This document shows positions 1-9,717 of a stretch of 64,000 nucleotides of DNA, piece after piece. The notes under the pieces were generated by a model. That model did no database searches. It saw nothing but the letters and a program-made list of their open reading frames with translations, and was not told the DNA's origin. Every line of letters starts with the position of its first letter. The first letter of the stretch is position 1. Made by a program: the position numbers and the translations under genes. Source of the stretch: Algoriphagus sp. TR-M9 (GTDB lineage: Bacteria; Bacteroidota; Bacteroidia; Cytophagales; Cyclobacteriaceae); NCBI RefSeq assembly GCF_027594545.1, contig NZ_CP115160.1:526501-590500 (forward strand), in the 5' to 3' direction.

Positions 1-750
1 CTGTCTGGCCTTAAGGAAAAAGTGACTGATTATGAGATAGAATCCCCGGTAGCAAGTATTCTCGACAGAGGAGCAAGTGGAGGGGGTGGGGGAGTGAACT
101 ATCCGGTGGAAGGAAGGCCGCTGTTTTCTTTCTATAGTCTGCCATGGGCAGGTTTAAATCCGGATACTGGAGCTCCTCGTGGGCTGCTGGATGGAGAGCC
201 TTCCGAGGATTACCGTACCCTGGTCAATGAAGCAAGTCTGGAAAGTATAGTCTATCACGGTCCTGCCAGACCCACCACGTTTGGATCCTTGCGGAATACC
301 TTCAGCTATAAAGGGTTTAGCTTTTCTGCCAATATCAGTTACCGATTTGGGTATTATTTCAGAAGGACTTCAGTTCAATACAGCAGTATCCAGATGGGAA
401 GGGGCGGTCATTCGGATTATGAGTTGAGATGGCAGAATCCGGGCGACGAGCTGGTAACCCAGATCCCTTCCCAGCCTGCCTCCATAGATAACCTGAGGGA
501 TACCTTCTACCGCAACAGCAGTGTCCTAGTTGAGAAAGGCGATCATATACGGCTTCAGGATGTCCGCTTAGGCTATAGCATTCCCAAACAGGGAACCGGG
601 CTTTTCTCCAAAATGGAGCGGGCAGAACTCTTTCTTTATGCCAATAACCTGGGGATGATCTGGAAAGCTACCGATACAGACTGGGACCCGGATTTTGGAA
701 GGCAGGTACCCAGAAAAAGTATAGCCGTAGGTATCCAACTTGATTTTTAA
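1..750 (+). CDS. SusC/RagA-family TonB-dependent receptor, C-terminal part
   Basis: The reading frame is open from the first base, so the gene starts upstream of the window; about 249 C-terminal residues are visible. The sequence shows alternating aromatic/hydrophobic outer-membrane barrel strands and ends in the typical barrel terminus (KSIAVGIQLDF, aromatic last residue). A SusD-like lipoprotein follows at 879, which identifies it as the transporter half of a SusCD glycan importer. Known role: TonB-energised import of oligosaccharides or peptides across the outer membrane. Substrate cannot be told because no enzyme lies next to it in the window. Confidence 0.9.
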   Translation: MSGLKEKVTDYEIESPVASILDRGASGGGGGVNYPVEGRPLFSFYSLPWAGLNPDTGAPRGLLDGEPSEDYRTLVNEASLESIVYHGPARPTTFGSLRNTFSYKGFSFSANISYRFGYYFRRTSVQYSSIQMGRGGHSDYELRWQNPGDELVTQIPSQPASIDNLRDTFYRNSSVLVEKGDHIRLQDVRLGYSIPKQGTGLFSKMERAELFLYANNLGMIWKATDTDWDPDFGRQVPRKSIAVGIQLDF

Positions 751-878: not shown

Positions 879-2228
879 ATGAACAGAATAAACATAAGAT
901 TTGCAATCCTCGGGTTCAGCCTGCTTTTATGGGGCTGTGAGGGATATCTGGACGAGAAGCCCAATCAGAATCTGGTGGTGGTGAATACCCTGGCTGATGT
1001 GCGGAGTCTTCTTGATAATTCAAGTGTTTTTAACGAGCAGCCCGTGCTGGGGGTGTTGGCAGCAGATAACTATTACCTGGCTGATGCCGGGGTGGCAGAT
1101 TTATCTGTTTACCAGATAGGTTCCTATTTCTGGATGGACGATCCTTTTCAGGGAGACTATGTAGGCGATTGGATTTCTCCCTATGAGCAGGTGTTCTATG
1201 CCAATGTGGCACTGGATGCATTGGATAAATTGGATGATAATGAAGGTTTAGGATCCGCTGAACTCAGGGGAGAGGCCTTGTTTCACCGTGCTTATGCCTA
1301 TTATCAGTTGCTTCAGTACTTTGCCCCTCCTTACAAGATGGCTGGTGGAAATGATCAGTTGCTGGGTATTGTGCTGAAGGATAGCCCTGATGTCAATGAA
1401 GAGGCATTTCGATCCAATCTAGAGGAATGTTACCGGAAAGTTCTGGATGATCTGAATGAAGCGGTGACTCTTTTACCGGATTTTCAGCTTCCTAAAACCA
1501 GACCAAGTAAAGTTTCTGCGCTAGGAATGCTGTCCCGTCTGCATTTGACCCTATTTGACTATCAGGCGGCTGCAGCTACGGCAAGAGAAGCATTGGAGCT
1601 ATATCCTGATCGGCTTGATTTTAGGGAAGCGGATGAGAATGCCCGCTTTCCCTTTGAGCGGATGGGAAAGGAGGTCATGTATTATTCCGCTTTGTTGACT
1701 GTTTCATTCAATAGATCTTCCGAAGTATATGTAGATACTTTGCTGGCTGCTTCCTATTGGGAGAATGACCTTCGTCTTCCGGTTTATTTTGACTCAGTGG
1801 GTCCAAATAGGCTCTCCTATACAGGAAGGCTGTCCGGTACCACTGGCATGTTTGGAGGTCTCAGTGTGGGAGAATTGGAGTTGAACCTGGCAGAAGGACT
1901 GGCCAGAACTGGGGATGAGGCTGGGGCAAAGGCGGTGTTGGAGGAGTTCTTTTCCAGAAGGATCGCTGGTGATGAAATTCCAGCGGTGGATTTCGAAGGA
2001 AAAGAATTGATTCAATTTATCCTGGATGAAAGGAGAAGGGAGTTGATAGGTAGGGGGCTCCGTTGGACTGATTTGAGGAGAATAAATCAGGAAGCGGATT
2101 ATGAAATAACCTTGGAAAAATCTTTGAATGGAGAGTCCTATGTGTTGGAGCCTAATTCGGTGAGGTACACCTATCCTATACCTGATGACGAGATTGTATT
2201 ATCCGGTATCCGGCAGAATGAAAGGTGA
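879..2228 (+). CDS. RagB/SusD-family outer-membrane lipoprotein
   Basis: 449 residues with a lipoprotein signal peptide; the lipobox cysteine is C20 (LLLWGC). The mature start (DEKPNQNLVV) and the C-terminal FILDERRRELIGRGLRWTDLRR-type region are typical of SusD proteins, as are the TPR-like helices between them. SusD forms the surface lid of the SusC channel at 1-750 and binds the incoming ligand. It is the last gene of its operon, since a strong terminator follows at once. The ligand is unknown. Family assignment is firm. Confidence 0.92.
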   Translation: MNRINIRFAILGFSLLLWGCEGYLDEKPNQNLVVVNTLADVRSLLDNSSVFNEQPVLGVLAADNYYLADAGVADLSVYQIGSYFWMDDPFQGDYVGDWISPYEQVFYANVALDALDKLDDNEGLGSAELRGEALFHRAYAYYQLLQYFAPPYKMAGGNDQLLGIVLKDSPDVNEEAFRSNLEECYRKVLDDLNEAVTLLPDFQLPKTRPSKVSALGMLSRLHLTLFDYQAAAATAREALELYPDRLDFREADENARFPFERMGKEVMYYSALLTVSFNRSSEVYVDTLLAASYWENDLRLPVYFDSVGPNRLSYTGRLSGTTGMFGGLSVGELELNLAEGLARTGDEAGAKAVLEEFFSRRIAGDEIPAVDFEGKELIQFILDERRRELIGRGLRWTDLRRINQEADYEITLEKSLNGESYVLEPNSVRYTYPIPDDEIVLSGIRQNER

Positions 2229-2270: not shown

Positions 2271-2564
2271 TCATAAGGCTACATATGTGCCTTCTTCCAG
2301 ATTCTCTATGGTGCCAAATGGATTGTCATTGACAAATTCCACTGCACATTCCTGAGAACTTTCATCGCATTCATAATCCACAAGGATTTCCTCATTGGTT
2401 ATCTCACGATAGCCGTTGGTCATCGCATAGTCGGGATGAGAATCTGGGGTCCAGACTTTGGTGGCAGTTTTTTCCGCCATCATAGTCGGTACATTCATGG
2501 CCATGGCCATGGTTGCTCCGAGCACTAATCCCAGTGCTGGAAGCATTTTAGATAGTTTATTCAT
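2271..2564 (-). CDS. DUF6520 family small exported protein
   Basis: 97 residues with an N-terminal hydrophobic segment (residues 8-24, LPALGLVLGATMAMAM) and a short acidic mature part carrying two cysteines (DYECDESSQEC). This is the pattern of DUF6520, a Bacteroidota family of small secreted proteins of unknown function. From memory these are often encoded beside MauE/DoxX membrane proteins; such a gene lies upstream on the same strand at 4270-4665, separated by repeats. Function unknown; a redox link is inferred from context only. Confidence 0.75.
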   Translation of the reverse strand: MNKLSKMLPALGLVLGATMAMAMNVPTMMAEKTATKVWTPDSHPDYAMTNGYREITNEEILVDYECDESSQECAVEFVNDNPFGTIENLEEGTYVAL

Positions 2565-2725
2565 GGTATTGTCCTGTTTTTTAACAGATCAAAAACAGGA
2601 AAACCGTTTCAGGTTGTTTGCCTACTCTAAAAAAGGGTTTTCGGCATCTCCCTTTCAGAGACTCATCGGGTACTAGCCAGTCTCTTACCCCAGGCTATCA
2701 AGAGAAATGAGTCTCTTTTTTAGCT

Positions 2726-2854: not shown

Positions 2855-3106
2855 TCTTATTCCTTTTTTTTGTGTGGTGATGCTTTTCCAGTCTGCTCCA
2901 ACTTCATCATTCTACATTTGGTATTCATTATTCGAACTTACCGACTTATGTTGTGCTGCTTCTCCAGAAGCAGCACTTTCATCCAAAACCTCACATCCAA
3001 CATCGGACACCTAACCTCCAACTTCCCTGCTTCCAAACCTCCAATCTTGATAATTGGTCAAGCGGACTATTATCAACCAACTTCCCGTTTCTTTTGTCCG
3101 TGGTCT

Positions 3107-4180
3107 GCACCGTGGTCTGTGTCTCCACAGACCACTATTGTTTTCGTTGATGGTAATTTGTTGATCGGGGTTTGTAATCCCGTTTCCATCTTGCTGGCAA
3201 TTATTTCCCGTCTCCGAATCACAATCCCGGGCCAGCGCTGGTGAAATGCCATTACTTTTTTACCCAGGGTTGCGTCGTGCCTCCTTACCCTGGGCTATTA
3301 CTATTGCATGCCTTCAGCCTGCTTCCAGACTTTTTAGGTTGTGCTGCTTCTCCAGAAGCTGCACGCTGAGACATCAAGCTGTTCGATATTTGCAATGTCC
3401 GCTCCGTGGTCTGAGTCTCCATAGACTACTAGCAATGATTTCCAATCCGTTTTTCGTTTCCATCTTGCTGGCAATTATTTCCCGTCTCCGAATCACAATC
3501 CCGGGCCAGTGCTCGGGAGGATTTTAATGCCCGTTTTGCGCCGGGTTGAAACCCGCCGCTACCCAGATTTCGTCCCTATGGGACTTTGCGTTCGATAGTT
3601 TCTACCTTGACTCCCGCACCGTGGTCTGTGTCTCCACAGACCACTATTGTTTTCGCTGATGGTAATTTGTTGATCGGGGTTTGTAATCCCGTTTCCATCT
3701 TGCTGGCAAATCGCCTCCGTCTCCGATTCACAATCCCGGGCCAGCGCTGGGGAAGATTTTAATGCTCGTTTTGCGGCGGGTTAAAACCCACCGCTACCCA
3801 GATTTCGTCCCTATGGGACTTTGCGTTCGATAGTTTCTACCTGACTCCAATTTTATCATTTGACATTCATCCTAACGCCCCAAATACCCTTTTTCCCTGC
3901 ACCGTGGTCTGTGTCTCCACAGACCACTATTGTTTTCGCTGATGGTAATTTGTTGATCGGGGTTTGTAATCCCGTTTCCATCTTGCTGGCAATTATTTCC
4001 CGTCTCCGAATCACAATCCCGGGCCAGCGCTGGGGAAGATTTTAATGCTCGTTTTGCGGCGGGTTAAAACCCACCGCTACCCAGATTTCGTCCCTATGGG
4101 ACTTTGCGTTCGATAGTTTCTACCTGACTCCAATTTTATCATTTGACATTCATCCTAACGCCCCAAATACCCTTTTTCCT
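3107..4180 (+). repeat. Tandem array of about 280-bp composite repeat units
   Basis: Units begin with GCACCGTGGTCTGTG. The two full units, 3616-3898 and 3899 to about 4180, are almost identical over their length (period 283). They differ mainly inside the 52-bp element that each contains. A 5'-part unit starts at 3107 and a degenerate unit covers about 3400-3615. Each unit runs: TCTCCA hairpin, ATGGTAATTTGTTGATC stretch, 52-bp element, GGGTT palindrome, GTCCCTATGGGAC palindrome. Confidence 0.85.
3190..4033 (+). repeat. Four copies of a 52-bp CTTGCTGGC...GCCAGCGCTGG element
   Basis: Copies at 3190-3241, 3464-3515, 3699-3750 and 3982-4033. Each starts with CTTGCTGGCAA and ends with GCCAGCGCTGG (GCCAGTGCTCG in the second copy), so GCTGGC and GCCAGC can pair. 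Every copy is exactly 52 bp although the interior differs. Three more copies occur at 7.9-9.04 kb. Confidence 0.85.
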
Positions 4181-4269: not shown

Positions 4270-4665
4270 TCACTTTAACCTTTCCAATCGAAGTGCTACC
4301 ACCGCTATTCCAATACAAATCATATTCAACACAAAATGCTCTGCCCATCCCAGATTCTCCAAGATCCCTGCACAATTACAGGGCACCCTCGGAAAAGCTC
4401 CTACCCAAATCAACCCCACATAAGTGGTGAAAACCGTCAGTAGTATTATACTTCCCAGATATCCCCACCATCGGGTTACTGAAAAGAGCAGGAGCAGGGC
4501 AATCAGCAACTCAGTGATCGGTACCGTATAAGCCAGTACCTCCGCTAGTTCTGCCGGGAAGGTCTGGTTATGGAAAGCCTTTCTACTCGCATCCCAGCGG
4601 ATCAGTTTATCCAATCCGGTATAGGTCCAGAGGATGATTAGTGGGATGCTGAGAATTCGGTTCAT
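4270..4665 (-). CDS. MauE/DoxX-family redox-associated membrane protein
   Basis: 131 residues with four predicted membrane helices (about 1-20, 45-65, 70-92, 108-126). A Cys-x-Cys motif (VPCNCAG, about residue 95) lies in the loop before the last helix. Members of the MauE/DoxX group are associated with thiol-disulphide processes at the membrane. The DUF6520 gene lies downstream on the same strand, beyond a repeat block. The family call is good; the reaction in this organism is unknown. Confidence 0.8.
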   Translation of the reverse strand: MNRILSIPLIILWTYTGLDKLIRWDASRKAFHNQTFPAELAEVLAYTVPITELLIALLLLFSVTRWWGYLGSIILLTVFTTYVGLIWVGAFPRVPCNCAGILENLGWAEHFVLNMICIGIAVVALRLERLK

Positions 4666-4808
4666 AATCGAAATATTTTGGTTAGCAGTTATAGTCTCCC
4701 TCTGCCCCGGAGCCTTTCTAGCAGGATTGCGGGTAGAGGGGTATGGCGAGGCAGTTTATGCTGCTGATAGCTGAAAGAAATTTAGATGTCTGATTATCAA
4801 AGTGCTAC

Positions 4809-4866
4809 CTCAAATGAGGGAGAAGGCCTTCTAGATCAAGAAAAACCTTCATTTGAGGGTTTTTTA
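4809..4866 (+). promoter_or_regulatory. Attenuator-like leader with two alternative hairpins
   Basis: A terminator hairpin (stem 4841-4849 / 4856-4864, loop CATTTG, then a T-run) overlaps the right arm of a second hairpin (CTCAAATGA 4809-4817 with TCATTTGAG 4849-4857). The two cannot form together. The second hairpin encloses a small palindrome, AGAAGGCCTTCT (4821-4832). It lies about 150 bp before the Crp/terpene synthase operon on the same strand, and no other plus-strand gene precedes it. Regulatory function is inference. Confidence 0.5.
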
Positions 4867-5017
4867 TAAAAAAAAGCAGGGATTCTTAGTTGTTTATTTG
4901 GATCAAATCCGCCTTAACAATAAATTAACATTGAATAATTAGTTGGTTTTTCATAAGATTCTTTCGAAAAGCTTTTCACCCTACATTTTGAATTAGTACA
5001 ATTTTACTACTAGAGAT

Positions 5018-5620
5018 ATGGAAAAGCGTGAGTACATGAATCAGCTGATTGCTGATAACAACAGGATCAGGAAGTTTTCTGATGAGGCCTATGAGGCAGT
5101 ATTTCAGAAACTCACATTGCGAAGGGTATCCAGAGGCGAGATACTCAAAAAGGTGGATACGGTGGATGTCAAAAGCCGCTATATCTGTGAAGGTTTCTTG
5201 GGACTTTTTCAGGAAGGGAAAAAAGGGCTTCAGTTGTTCAGGATTTTTGGCAAGTCGGATACAGCATTTGATGAGCAGTCATTCAGGAGCAACGCTCCTT
5301 CCAAGACCATGATCAGGGCTTTGTCAGATACCGTGTTTCTGGGGTTTACCCTAGAGGCGGAAACAGAGATACTTTCCAGAAAGCCGGAGTTCTATTCCCT
5401 GGCATTGGAAGTAGCCCACCGCATTAATAAGCGGCATGTAGAACAGGAAGCTATCAAAACCAGAAAGTTTATGGATGGTTTTCCGCTCCTGCTCAAGAAG
5501 TATCCTGGGATAGGTCAGCACCTCAAAAATCAGGATTTGGCAGATTTTTTCAATTGCAGTATCAGCACCGTAGAGCGACATAAATACCCAATCATGAATG
5601 AGTATGAAGGCAGTCTTTGA
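5018..5620 (+). CDS. Crp/Fnr-like transcriptional regulator
   Basis: 200 residues. The N-terminal two thirds resemble a cyclic-nucleotide-binding beta-barrel (about 20-120), followed by a long helix. A helix-turn-helix follows at about 169-190 (LKNQDLADFFNCSISTVERHK). The cNMP phosphate-binding cassette is not recognisable, so the ligand is unknown. The 3' end overlaps the terpene synthase start by 17-23 bp, which implies translational coupling and suggests it controls its own operon. An attenuator-like leader lies upstream. The start ATG at 5018 is the first in-frame one; GTG or TTG starts were not needed. Confidence 0.82.
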   Translation: MEKREYMNQLIADNNRIRKFSDEAYEAVFQKLTLRRVSRGEILKKVDTVDVKSRYICEGFLGLFQEGKKGLQLFRIFGKSDTAFDEQSFRSNAPSKTMIRALSDTVFLGFTLEAETEILSRKPEFYSLALEVAHRINKRHVEQEAIKTRKFMDGFPLLLKKYPGIGQHLKNQDLADFFNCSISTVERHKYPIMNEYEGSL

Positions 5621-6500
5621 ATTTCCAGTAGCCATGAACAGACATTGTATTGCCCTGGACGTGGAGGTGCTCCGATGGGCCTGGGCTGCTGGTCTGTTTG
5701 AAAGCCCCGCCGAATTGGAACGTTGCAGAACTCAAAAGATCAATTGGTTTGCCGCCTATCTTTTCCCAGAGGAATTACCCTTGAAACTGGAGCTGATCAT
5801 GAAGTTCTTTTTGTGCCTGTTTCTGTTGGATGATCTCCTGGATATATACCTGGATAGAGATATGGAGCATTACCTCATTCATCTCCGGTCCGGAAAAGCT
5901 TCTCATCCCGTCCCCAGATTGGAAAAGCTGGGCGCTAGCCTTCTGCAATTCAATCAGGAAATAGTTCAAGCTAATGGAGTGTCGGGACTAGGAAAGCAAT
6001 GGGAGCAAACCTGGCAAGATCATCTGGAGGCCTTGCAGTGGGAACTGAGGAGTAAAAGATCAGCTGTTCCTCCTGTCTTGGAAGCGTATAGAAGGTATAG
6101 ACCCATAGCCTCCGGAGCCTACCTGGCCATGGGTTTTCTGAGGACAGACAACACTTTTCTTGATTGCTTTAGTGAACTACTGGAATCCCAGTTGGCCAGG
6201 TTTATCTGCCTCTCCAATGATCTGGCTTCCCATACCAAAGAGCTAAAAATCGGAGACTTTCATAATGAAGTACTCATCCTCAGGGAGGAAATAGGTGATA
6301 TAGCGATTGGCTGGGTACAAAATGAAATTGTAAGGCTTAGGAAAAGCATTTGGATGCTGGCCGAGCAGGTCGGCTCCCAGTCAGAGCAATGCGATAGATG
6401 GGCCCGCAGCCTTTTGTTACAGGCTGGGGGATGTACTGCCTGGACGGCTGAGACCTCCAGATATCAGGTTTATATCAACGGTAATTCTGCTACACACTAA
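5598..6500 (+). CDS. Class I terpene synthase (bacterial type)
   Basis: 300 residues, close to the usual 300-350 of single-domain bacterial terpene cyclases. Residues below count from the ATG at 5598. The aspartate-rich metal motif is DDLLD (78-82) in the context FLCLFLLDDLLD. The NSE triad is intact in NDLASHTKE (N207, S211, E215). The pyrophosphate-sensing arginine is probably R168 (YRRYRPIASG), and the C-terminal RY pair is R288-Y289. These indicate Mg-dependent ionisation and cyclisation of a prenyl diphosphate; chain length and product cannot be told. FEFP near the N-terminus matches the family start, so 5598 or 5604 is favoured over 5634. No methyltransferase or P450 is adjacent. Confidence 0.88.
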   Translation: MSMKAVFEFPVAMNRHCIALDVEVLRWAWAAGLFESPAELERCRTQKINWFAAYLFPEELPLKLELIMKFFLCLFLLDDLLDIYLDRDMEHYLIHLRSGKASHPVPRLEKLGASLLQFNQEIVQANGVSGLGKQWEQTWQDHLEALQWELRSKRSAVPPVLEAYRRYRPIASGAYLAMGFLRTDNTFLDCFSELLESQLARFICLSNDLASHTKELKIGDFHNEVLILREEIGDIAIGWVQNEIVRLRKSIWMLAEQVGSQSEQCDRWARSLLLQAGGCTAWTAETSRYQVYINGNSATH

Positions 6501-6516: not shown

Positions 6517-6714
6517 ATGATGATTAATAAACGTGCTGTAATCTATCCAAAAGACATTGTCTGCCTGACGGGAAGAAGTGAGCGATATGCCCAGATCATG
6601 ATGCATAAAGCCCGTGCTTATGTCAACAAAGAACCCCATCAGTTTGTGACCGTATCCGACTTTGCCCTTTTTTCGGGGATTCCAGAGGAGGTCATCCGGA
6701 AGTACATGCTCTAA
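6517..6714 (+). CDS. Small putative helix-turn-helix protein
   Basis: 65 residues, starting 16 bp after the terpene synthase stop with a good ribosome-binding site (GAGGAGG at about 6506-6512). It has the pattern IYPKDIVCLTGRSERYAQ ... HQFVTVSDFALFSGIP, which I recall from many small Bacteroidota proteins of unknown function. The two short helical segments look like a compact DNA-binding fold (inference). It may be the third gene of the Crp/terpene synthase transcript, or the first gene of the following small-gene region. An antisense frame at 6490-6885 is only its shadow. Confidence 0.65.
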   Translation: MMINKRAVIYPKDIVCLTGRSERYAQIMMHKARAYVNKEPHQFVTVSDFALFSGIPEEVIRKYML

Positions 6715-7137: not shown

Positions 7138-7785
7138 ATGGGAAAAGTCACAGATGGTTTATTGGGAGGAATCTCCGGAAAGGTGGGGAATTTGGTTTTT
7201 TATCAGGTCAATGGAGAGACCCTGGTCAGGTCCAATTCCGGCAATAGAAGTGGTACTACCGCGCTTCAGAGTTATAATCAGCAGGCTTTTGCCTTGGTGC
7301 AGGAGTTTTTGTCACCTATGAAAAGAGAGCTGGCCATTGGGTTTGCCAGCTTTAAAAAGGGGACCAAGCGAGGCATTGACCGGGCCAAGAGTTTGATGCT
7401 CAAGAACGGGATTTATCCTCAGGACGGCATCCCCCTGCTACAGCCTATGAAGGCCTTGGTCTCCTCAGGAGATCTGACTGGGGTAAAGGATGGGGTGCTG
7501 GGAGTTTTTGAGGATTCAAGTTTCAGCATTGAGTGGACACCTAATAGTTGGGATGGTTCGGCCCGGGATTCTGACCAAACCTTTGTGGTGGTATATGATA
7601 CCGGGAAGCAGCGGGTATTCAGTAAGCAGGGAGCTTGCTATCGCAAAGATGGCTTTCAGGAAATAGAGTTGCCTTGGAGCAACATAGATAGATCCTCTGG
7701 GCTGTATGTTTACTTTTCTTTTTATTCCGAGCGTGGCAGCAAAGTCGAATTTTCAGATTCAGTATGTCTGGGGAAAATTGAATAG
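7138..7785 (+). CDS. DUF6266 family protein
   Basis: 215 residues without signal peptide or membrane segment. The N-terminus (GKVGNLVFYQVNGETLVRS) is the hallmark of DUF6266, a Bacteroidota family of unknown function usually lying in repeat-rich accessory DNA. The C-terminal half is predicted beta-rich (TFVVVYDTGKQRVFSKQ and later strands). The N-terminal GxVGxLxFY...R pattern recurs in the protein at 9918, so both share a module. The region upstream carries an 11-bp phased repeat. Function unknown. Confidence 0.72.
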   Translation: MGKVTDGLLGGISGKVGNLVFYQVNGETLVRSNSGNRSGTTALQSYNQQAFALVQEFLSPMKRELAIGFASFKKGTKRGIDRAKSLMLKNGIYPQDGIPLLQPMKALVSSGDLTGVKDGVLGVFEDSSFSIEWTPNSWDGSARDSDQTFVVVYDTGKQRVFSKQGACYRKDGFQEIELPWSNIDRSSGLYVYFSFYSERGSKVEFSDSVCLGKIE

Positions 7786-7970
7786 AAAAGTATTAAGATT
7801 GGAATCAAGACAAAAGATAGAGCTGGTCTGGTCACCTTGGGTAATGAAGTCTTCAGACTGCCGATAGATTACCGTCCCTACAGGTCTTCATATCTCCATC
7901 TTGCTGGCAAATCGCCTCCGTCTTTGAATCACAATCCCGAGCCAGCGCTGGGGGAATGGTTCTATATTGA

Positions 7971-8619
7971 ACCCATGGTTGCGTCGTGCCTCCTTACTCT
8001 GGGCTATTACTATTGCATGCCTTCAGCCTGCTTTCAGACTTCCATCTCTGCCACCCTAGCGAATAAGGACTAATACGCTTCGACTCCGCTCAGCGTGACA
8101 GGCTTCCTACCCTTTGGTAAACAGGTATGCCGTTCGGAAGGAAAGGGGAACGTGATTTTAGTAACCACGGTCATTTCGAAGGAGCTCCTAAATTGATGAA
8201 AGAAGCTAATTCTGATTATGCGACTGAGAAATCTCAATCGTAATTCTTAACAGTAACATTGGGGGAGATTTCTCCTCGCATCAGCATTTTCGAGTAGTAA
8301 AACATACACGTTTGCTCGTCGAAATGACCCTGTAACGCGATCTCGGTACAGTTAACCTTCCGACTACCGATACCCAGCAACGGTCACCGGTCACCGGACA
8401 CCTAACTTTCTGACTCTACCTACTTTCAGCTTTGACCTTCTCCCACTAAGTCTGAGACTGCCGCGGCTCGTACCTCACCTCGCAGTGACGGTCACCAACA
8501 CCAAACACCCAACTTCCCGACCTCCCGACTTCCCGACCTCCAAAATATTGAATACCGAATGTCAAAATACCGAAAACGGCAACTTTAAACTTTTCATTTT
8601 AAACTCTCAACTCTTCCAT
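7971..8619 (+). repeat. 650-bp direct repeat, copy 1
   Basis: Nearly identical to 9062-9717. Contains a CCCAGGGTT/CTGGG hairpin remnant, the CTTCGACTCCGCTCAGCGTGACA motif, a GAGAAATCTC...GAGATTTCTC inverted pair and CTTCCCGACCTCCCGAC runs. No gene: the longest frames are interrupted and start without a ribosome-binding site. Confidence 0.9.
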
Positions 8620-8671
8620 CTTGCTGGCATCACGTCTCCGACTCCGAATCAGGATCACGGGCCAGCGCTGG

Positions 8672-8989
8672 TTAACCATTAAATCCTTAATCCCAGGGTT
8701 GAAACCCTAGGCAATAATATGAACCGCCCCTATGGGGCTGATTATTAAAATCTAGTCGTTACTTGGACTGCGCGGGGGGAAGTCAAAATAGCGGGCCAGC
8801 CTGTCCCGATAACGAAGTGTATCGGGAGACTGTTGGCCTAGTGCGGCTGAAGCATTATTTTGACAAGACTTTTGGATACTTTTGGTCTCAAAAGTATCGA
8901 GAGAAAACAACTTTCGCATAAGCCATTATGGTAACTAGGGAAGTTGTCGATTGAATAAAAATAGTTGTCCAATCTGGCTTTTCGGTAAT
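8672..8989. other. Non-coding spacer between the direct repeats
   Basis: No gene seen. It holds several short palindromes: CCCAGGGTTGAAACCCT, GCCCCTATGGGGC, CCCGATA...TATCGGG and GATACTTTTG/CAAAAGTATC with a GTCT loop. Confidence 0.6.
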
Positions 8990-9061
8990 CTTGCTGGCAA
9001 TTACTTCCCGTCTCTGAATGGGGATGGTGTGCCAGCGCTGGTGAAATGCCATTACTTTTTT

Positions 9062-9717
9062 ACCCAGGGTTGCGTCGTGCCTCCTTACCCTGGGCTATTA
9101 CTATTGCATGCCTTCAGCATGCTTCCAGACTTCCATCTCTGCCACCCTAGCGAATAAGGACTAATACGCTTCGACTCCGCTCAGCGTGACAGGCTTCCTA
9201 CCCTTTGGTAAACAGGTATGCCGTTCGGAAGGAAAGGGGAACGTGATTTTAGTAACCACGGTCATTTCGAAGGAGCTCCTAAATTGATGAAAGAAGCTAA
9301 TTCTGATTATGCGACTGAGAAATCTCAATCGTAATTCCTAACAGTAACATTGGGGGAGATTTCTCCTCGCATCAGCATTTTCGAATAGTATCACATTCAG
9401 GTTTGCTCGTCGAAATGACCCTGTAACGCGATCTCGGTACAGTTAACCTTCCGACTTCCGATACCCAGCAACAGTCACCGGTCACCGGACACCTAACTTT
9501 CTGACTCTACCTACTTTCAGCTTTCAGCTTTGACCTTCTCCCACTAAGTCTGAGACTGCCGCGGCTTGTACCTCACCTCGCAGTGACGGTCCCCAACACC
9601 AAACACCCAACTTCCCGACCTCCCGACTTCCCGACCTCCAAAATATTGAATACCTAATGTCAAAATACCGAAAACGGCAACTTTAAACTTTTCATTTTAA
9701 ACTCTCAACTCTTCCAT
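9062..9717 (+). repeat. 650-bp direct repeat, copy 2
   Basis: Second copy of 7971-8619. It is 7 bp longer because TCAGCTT is duplicated in tandem (CTTTCAGCTTTCAGCTTTG at about 9521-9540); otherwise only scattered single-base differences are visible. After 9717 the sequence diverges abruptly: copy 1 runs into a 52-bp element, copy 2 into unrelated DNA ahead of the gene at 9918. Confidence 0.9.

Follow-up and report, generated by a model that had tools for sequence, protein, structure and literature searches.

The window, by which we mean the whole 64,000-nucleotide stretch of the Algoriphagus sp. TR-M9 genome analysed here, carries within its first 8 kb a Crp-like regulator gene that overlaps a class I terpene synthase gene. 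The following features were assigned around this pair, with positions counted from the first nucleotide of the window.

1..750, + strand: 3' end of a SusC-like gene, which starts outside the window (ORF and synteny)
879..2228, + strand: SusD-like protein (Pfam PF14322)
2271..2564, − strand: small predicted secreted DUF6520 protein (PF20130, 26.0 bits; cut-off, 25.4)
2619..2654, − strand: DUF805b cis-regulatory RNA upstream of the DUF6520 gene (Rfam RF02914)
4270..4665, − strand: MauE-family membrane protein, divergent from the regulator (PF07291, 100 bits; synteny)
4808..4864, + strand: terminator-like inverted repeat with a T run, upstream of the regulator; similar in five close relatives
4914..5000, + strand: conserved upstream block, a candidate promoter/operator (TTAACATT at 4925, TTAGTT at 4939, TTCACCC at 4975)
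5018..5620, + strand: Crp-like regulator (fold model, structure matches, family profile to CAP)
5604..6500, + strand: class I terpene synthase, previously read from 5598 (PF19086, alignment, junction comparison, PDB relatives)
5604..5620, + strand: 17-nt overlap of the regulator and synthase genes (junction comparison)
6517..6714, + strand: 65-aa small protein, 16 nt past the synthase, whose family weakly matches a Cox-like family
7138..7785, + strand: DUF6266 protein, a recurrent downstream neighbour of split pairs (Pfam PF19781)

The synthase had been credited in a sequence-only reading with every class I hallmark, and this assignment was borne out. Its ORF, first read as 5598–6500 (+) and lying in frame +1 with respect to the regulator gene, matches Terpene_syn_C_2 (PF19086) with 58.4 bits against a cut-off of 23.7 and carries the aspartate-rich DDxxD motif as DDLLD, the metal-binding NDxxSxxxE motif as NDLASHTKE, and the RY pair at the C-terminus. 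In an alignment of 30 sequences D76, D77, N205, D206, S209, K212, E213, R286 and Y287 (counted from the start at 5604) are invariant, and R166, which we take to be the likely diphosphate-sensor Arg, is nearly so. All NCBIfam product-level cut-offs lie far above the score of the synthase (at best 58.4 bits versus 400). The nearest solved structures are those of T-muurolol synthase (9hqi/9hqd) and 1-epi-cubenol synthase (9hq2), which share the catalytic motifs and the fold but are only ~25% identical in the structural match. Unlike the solved bacterial synthases, members of the family described here invariably come with a Crp-fold HTH protein, either linked or fused.

The 200-aa regulator had been called a true HTH-type protein, and its predicted structure agrees. 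The AlphaFold2 model (pLDDT 95.3) places an N-terminal β-barrel of the cNMP-binding fold before a long dimer helix (~residues 125–147) and a C-terminal HTH, the layout common to the Crp/Fnr regulators CAP, MtbCRP, FNR and NtcA. The model matches full-length CRP, FNR and NtcA structures, and its whole length is CRP fold; the barrel also resembles Cytophaga hutchinsonii 3dn7. With its CRP fold and C-terminal HTH the protein belongs to the Crp/Fnr group, and a profile of the regulator family finds CAP with an E-value near 1e-9. It differs from the known members in staying below the curated Pfam scores (cNMP_binding PF00027, 16.5 versus 27.5 bits; Crp PF00325, 12.7 versus 21) and in the replacement, seen in the alignment, of the canonical cAMP-binding residues of CAP; in CRP numbering, these are presumably G71/E72, now F/D, and R82, now S. 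A further difference is its dedication to a terpene synthase, with which in places it forms one polypeptide. We infer that the regulator is a sequence-specific DNA-binding protein.

At the junction, the synthase start had been placed inside the 3' end of the regulator gene. The overlap is real, but the position needs correction: because the nearest relatives (L002–L005) lack the first ATG at 5598, the start is probably 5604, which makes the overlap 17 nt and not 23. The accompanying description of the regulator as fused to the synthase is inaccurate: fused ORFs do occur in a sister clade, but the genes of the window are separate. Compared with the junctions of its relatives, the 17-nt overlap is best read as an ordinary gene overlap.

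Upstream of the regulator, sequence blocks at about −93, −79 and −45 recur at a constant distance among the nearer split loci. They are absent from the fusions and from the more distant split loci and form no clear palindrome; we regard them as candidate control elements, whose function would be regulatory. A separate candidate, a long palindromic operator ahead of the regulator gene (GAAAAGCTTTTC), is palindrome-like in the window and was rejected because it is not kept in relatives.

How general the pair is was judged from three overlapping genome sets. The window synthase found matches in 33 of 194 relatives; a 30-row synthase profile found them in 22 of 390 genomes of the order, 21 of these in the host's family, and in 5 of 395 genomes of the phylum, 3 of these outside that family. 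All 59 distinct synthase places found in the host's family were fetched with their flanks, as was one locus from another family (L124). The regulator and the synthase are adjacent or fused in 59/59 host-family loci, three of which are damaged or loosely spaced. Thirty-six loci are split, and in every one the regulator precedes the synthase on the same strand, overlapping it in 25 and standing 0 to 1427 nt away in 11; the other 23 loci hold a single ORF of 514–554 aa, regulator then synthase. Start codons were set at the first possible place, and the longest overlaps (53–83 nt) are therefore upper limits. The poor split cases are L088, with a synthase interrupted by stops, L101, with a short regulator 380 nt off, and L095, with its regulator 1427 nt off. 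The 59 loci include near-copies and are not an independent sample, since they were found through similarity to the window synthase; pairing nevertheless exceeds chance, because the split loci are paired in 36/36 cases, whereas the whole 4.8-Mb host genome yields only 6 matches to the regulator profile. Pairing with the regulator is the rule in the synthase loci of the host's family. The possibility that the two genes never adjoin in homologous loci, named as a refutation when the overlap was first noticed, is answered by these 59 adjacent or fused loci, and the overlap itself recurs in 25 of the 36 split ones.

Outside the family, no regulator of the window type stands at the synthase of L124 (G149), and no Crp-like ORF of ≥150 aa lies by that of L160 (G735). 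At L159 (G670) a 191-aa Crp-like ORF diverges from the synthase gene at a distance of ~330 nt. Among plasmid records, a fusion query matched 8, by the synthase part only and to ordinary synthases, and the window synthase query matched none.

The regulators paired with synthases form a group of their own. Among the regulator matches in 11 genomes, synthase-linked proteins make up 8 of the 10 best-scoring (119–266 bits), the other two being an orphan of genome G033 (168 bits) and a protein encoded next to a fusion (103 bits); all remaining matches score ≤85 bits. In the regulator tree (85 rows, without the 19-bit L105 match and identical-sequence background rows), a 62-row clade (100/99) contains 58 linked regulators, the G033 orphan and three extra regulators just upstream of fusions, leaving 23 other Crp-like proteins outside. 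The degraded L101 was dropped from both trees, and L088 from the synthase tree. By this topology the regulator clade is dedicated to this terpene synthase family. Extra stand-alone regulators of the same clade were observed just upstream of the fusion at L118, L120 and L121.

Two regulators, G033/L155 and G020/L204, stand among the same neighbours with no trace of a synthase; the regulator can therefore have a different role. Because the G033 regulator sits inside the linked clade beside L080, loss of the synthase is suggested there; the L204 regulator is not a row of the tree. The regulator and synthase trees are incompletely congruent: the L073 and L074 regulators diverge far more than the synthases (dN 0.64 versus 0.23), so that an exchange of partners does at times take place. 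Values of dN/dS were computed on 12 locus pairs, split and fused, some of them undefined; in the split pairs they range over 0.08–0.31, with 0.08–0.23 for the regulator and 0.11–0.31 for the synthase. Purifying selection acts on both halves, and on the HTH as well.

A single branch (100/100) of the 58-row synthase tree sets the 23 fusions apart, and they form one clade in the regulator tree as well (98/90, 85 rows). As far as sequence can show it, the fusion arose once. It has been kept in several genera under constraint (dN/dS 0.10–0.19 in the barrel, 0–0.17 in the HTH and 0.12–0.18 in the synthase), and both the HTH and the catalytic motifs are retained. A fusion model (pLDDT 90.8, pTM 0.71) divides into a CRP part and a synthase part, the latter similar to the 1-epi-cubenol and T-muurolol synthases (TMt 0.82–0.88); the linker is short and mostly helical, with the recognition helix continuing into it.

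The pair also has a constant setting, which the sequence-only reading had overlooked. Upstream of it come SusC and SusD and then DUF6520 and MauE on the opposite strand, with gene order and orientation preserved. Where enough flank was available, L124 being counted in, MauE was present in 56/59 loci, SusD in 52/54, DUF6520 in 46/55 and SusC in 38/45; seven stretches carry a conserved ORF ahead of SusC, presumably TlpA-like. The DUF6520 proteins begin in a signal-peptide-like manner. Variable genes with an adjoining HTH gene stand just ahead of several module copies (L234–L238) and look by eye like defence or mobile cargo. With the MauE profile, 80 rows were obtained from 25 of 97 genomes, and 40 further MauE regions without a known synthase were fetched; L200 (no MauE) and G027:C19 (contig end) stand outside this payload census. 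LanB was found in 28 of the 40, each time together with histidine kinase and LytTR matches, and Pfam scans of example loci bore out these three assignments. Two regions gave synthase matches, a full fusion at L220, the only further fusion that this MauE-seeded survey added, and a 78-aa BLAST match at L223, unconfirmed by profile; one holds a regulator alone (L204), and the remaining 9 run into contig ends or carry other genes. No locus has both payloads: LanB, kinase and LytTR are absent from the 60 synthase loci, and synthase or regulator matches from the 28 LanB loci. In gene content, the regulator–synthase pair is one of two alternative payloads of the SusC–SusD / DUF6520–MauE module. The DUF805b RNA also lies 5' of DUF6520 in 5/12 further loci scanned, in terpene and LanB versions alike. 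One genome carries three module copies with histidine kinase, LytTR regulator and LanB dehydratase (L193, L194, L195).

Direct-repeat families of 74–300 nt (window 3105–4178 and 7894–9717) flank the stretch from MauE through the regulator and synthase to DUF6266. Similar repeats are scattered intergenically at several loci, in terpene-type and LanB-type loci alike, and they were therefore rejected as specific exchange sites and no specific role is claimed for them.

Downstream, excision and transfer regulators often come next after the pair, a second feature missed earlier. RteC is the next gene on the same strand in 18/23 fusions, at a gap of −8 to 105 nt in 17; at L112 the RteC ORF start is too long for the gap to be measured. 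Relaxase, MobC-like or TraG genes lie within ~5 kb of several fusions, and no transfer genes were seen at the window locus. In at least 20 of the 36 split loci the next gene encodes a protein of 63–68 aa (104 aa as read in L067). Members of this family match a Cox-like excisionase family weakly in 15 of 21 cases (best E 1.6e-4); the window's own 65-aa member has no such match. At L100, L102, L105, L114 and L117 a different Crp-like protein (cluster c19) stands before the fusion, and the next gene is not RteC.

The explanation that we favour, and consider somewhat probable, is a dedicated switch-enzyme unit, in which a Crp-fold regulator and a synthase are produced from one operon and the regulator most likely controls its own expression. 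The two would be made together, from overlapping genes in the window and as one polypeptide in the sister clade; the fusion shows that they are able to work as a single unit. Lacking the usual contacts to cAMP, a Crp-fold dimer would control its own operon, including the synthase and often a gene for excision or transfer control (RteC or the Cox-like protein), and the synthase would turn a prenyl diphosphate, most likely farnesyl diphosphate, into a terpene. Direct control of the synthase by the regulator is plausible, and the product may be a plain terpene, as the sequence-only reading proposed; autoregulation, catalytic activity and substrate are predictions. We favour this reading because linkage is universal, the fusion has a single origin, the regulator clade is dedicated and both parts are constrained, and also because of the fold models, the fixed-distance upstream blocks and the position of RteC next to 18/23 fusions. 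It is weakened by the unpalindromic and patchy upstream blocks, the two regulators without a synthase and the exchange of partners.

A conventional regulator responding to an unrelated ligand would explain much of this by ordinary pathway-specific regulation, with a neutral fusion and mobile neighbours that reflect where the module landed. Operon genes commonly overlap, most split loci have no transfer genes nearby and the module adjoins many kinds of variable genes; however, a fusion maintained under constraint in several genera and a tight, same-strand RteC after 18/23 fusions fit poorly, and we hold this account to be possible but on the unlikely side. It is slightly harder to believe that the synthase doubles as a sensor, so that bound prenyl diphosphate or terpene alters DNA binding by the Crp part, the fusion reading isoprenoid supply directly and the split pair doing likewise as a complex. 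The physical fusion, in which the HTH and both halves are conserved, would suit such a trigger enzyme, as would the modelled short helical linker from recognition helix to synthase and the replaced CRP residues for cAMP, which call for another signal, but the split form works as two genes and has exchanged partners. An extension that we put forward tentatively, and rate as rather improbable, is that the unit senses or makes an isoprenoid signal that sets excision and transfer via RteC or the Cox-like protein; it would then, just as tentatively, take the place of the two-component system of CTnDOT and of the LanB version of the module. Any link of the unit to excision is conjectural.

That the Crp-fold protein is no transcription factor at all but a partner that organises or houses the enzyme, as in 2-methylisoborneol (2-MIB) operons, seems quite improbable: strict linkage and fusion would fit, and 2-MIB and geosmin clusters offer a precedent for terpene synthases with nucleotide-binding-domain proteins (PMC5009524), but the HTH is intact and constrained even in fusions, and the 200-aa protein is all CRP fold, with no shell domain. 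Finally, a programmed +1 frameshift making one protein of both window genes has next to no chance and was ruled out: the regulator does end CTT TGA, which we take to be an RF2-like shift site, and a +1 shift would enter the synthase frame, yet 0/22 other split junctions have both the +1 frame and a CTT TGA likewise placed inside the synthase frame, relatives ending their regulators in CGT TGA, CTG TGA, TCA TGA, TTA TAA, GAC TAA or 4-nt ATGA overlaps, and L012, which does end CTT TGA, beginning its synthase past that stop.

To our knowledge, a fusion of a transcription factor to a terpene synthase is not a known form, and our search of the open-access literature found no paper on a Crp–terpene synthase fusion or on DUF6520, a silence that is weak evidence of absence because it covers open-access papers only. 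The component families are known; the dedicated pair, the fusion, the alternative-payload module and the place before RteC were not found there. Within that literature, the switch-enzyme unit points to a terpene-linked mode of gene control undescribed so far. The fusion joins an enzyme of specialised metabolism to a DNA-binding part in a single chain and makes testable the question of whether a terpene synthase is also a sensor, and the family adds a new class of synthases still to be characterised. Should the link to RteC prove functional, horizontal gene transfer in Bacteroidota would have isoprenoid chemistry as an input. The swap between terpene and LanB payloads gives a handle on the role of the SusC–SusD–DUF6520–MauE module.

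Two known systems invite comparison. The 2-MIB partner, as we understand it, has no HTH and carries an encapsulin-like shell domain; the regulator of the window, a 200-aa HTH-bearing CRP-fold protein, does not share this design, in line with the difference first claimed. As described in PMC5009524, 2-MIB and cyanobacterial geosmin clusters combine a terpene synthase with cyclic-nucleotide-binding proteins, and the likeness is that the synthase gene adjoins one for a nucleotide-binding-domain protein. In those clusters the partner lies downstream or together with a methyltransferase, whereas here an HTH regulator is upstream or fused, and a SAM-dependent methyltransferase like that of the 2-MIB cluster in that source is not among the recurrent neighbours of the 60 loci; nor is any other tailoring enzyme conserved among them, as had been noted for the window. 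The other system is CTnDOT, in which, according to PMC1976400, rteC is switched on by RteA and RteB and its product in turn controls genes of excision and transfer. The rteA–rteB–rteC order has a regulator ahead of RteC, as in the fusion loci; a two-component system in CTnDOT stands where the Crp–terpene synthase fusion stands here.
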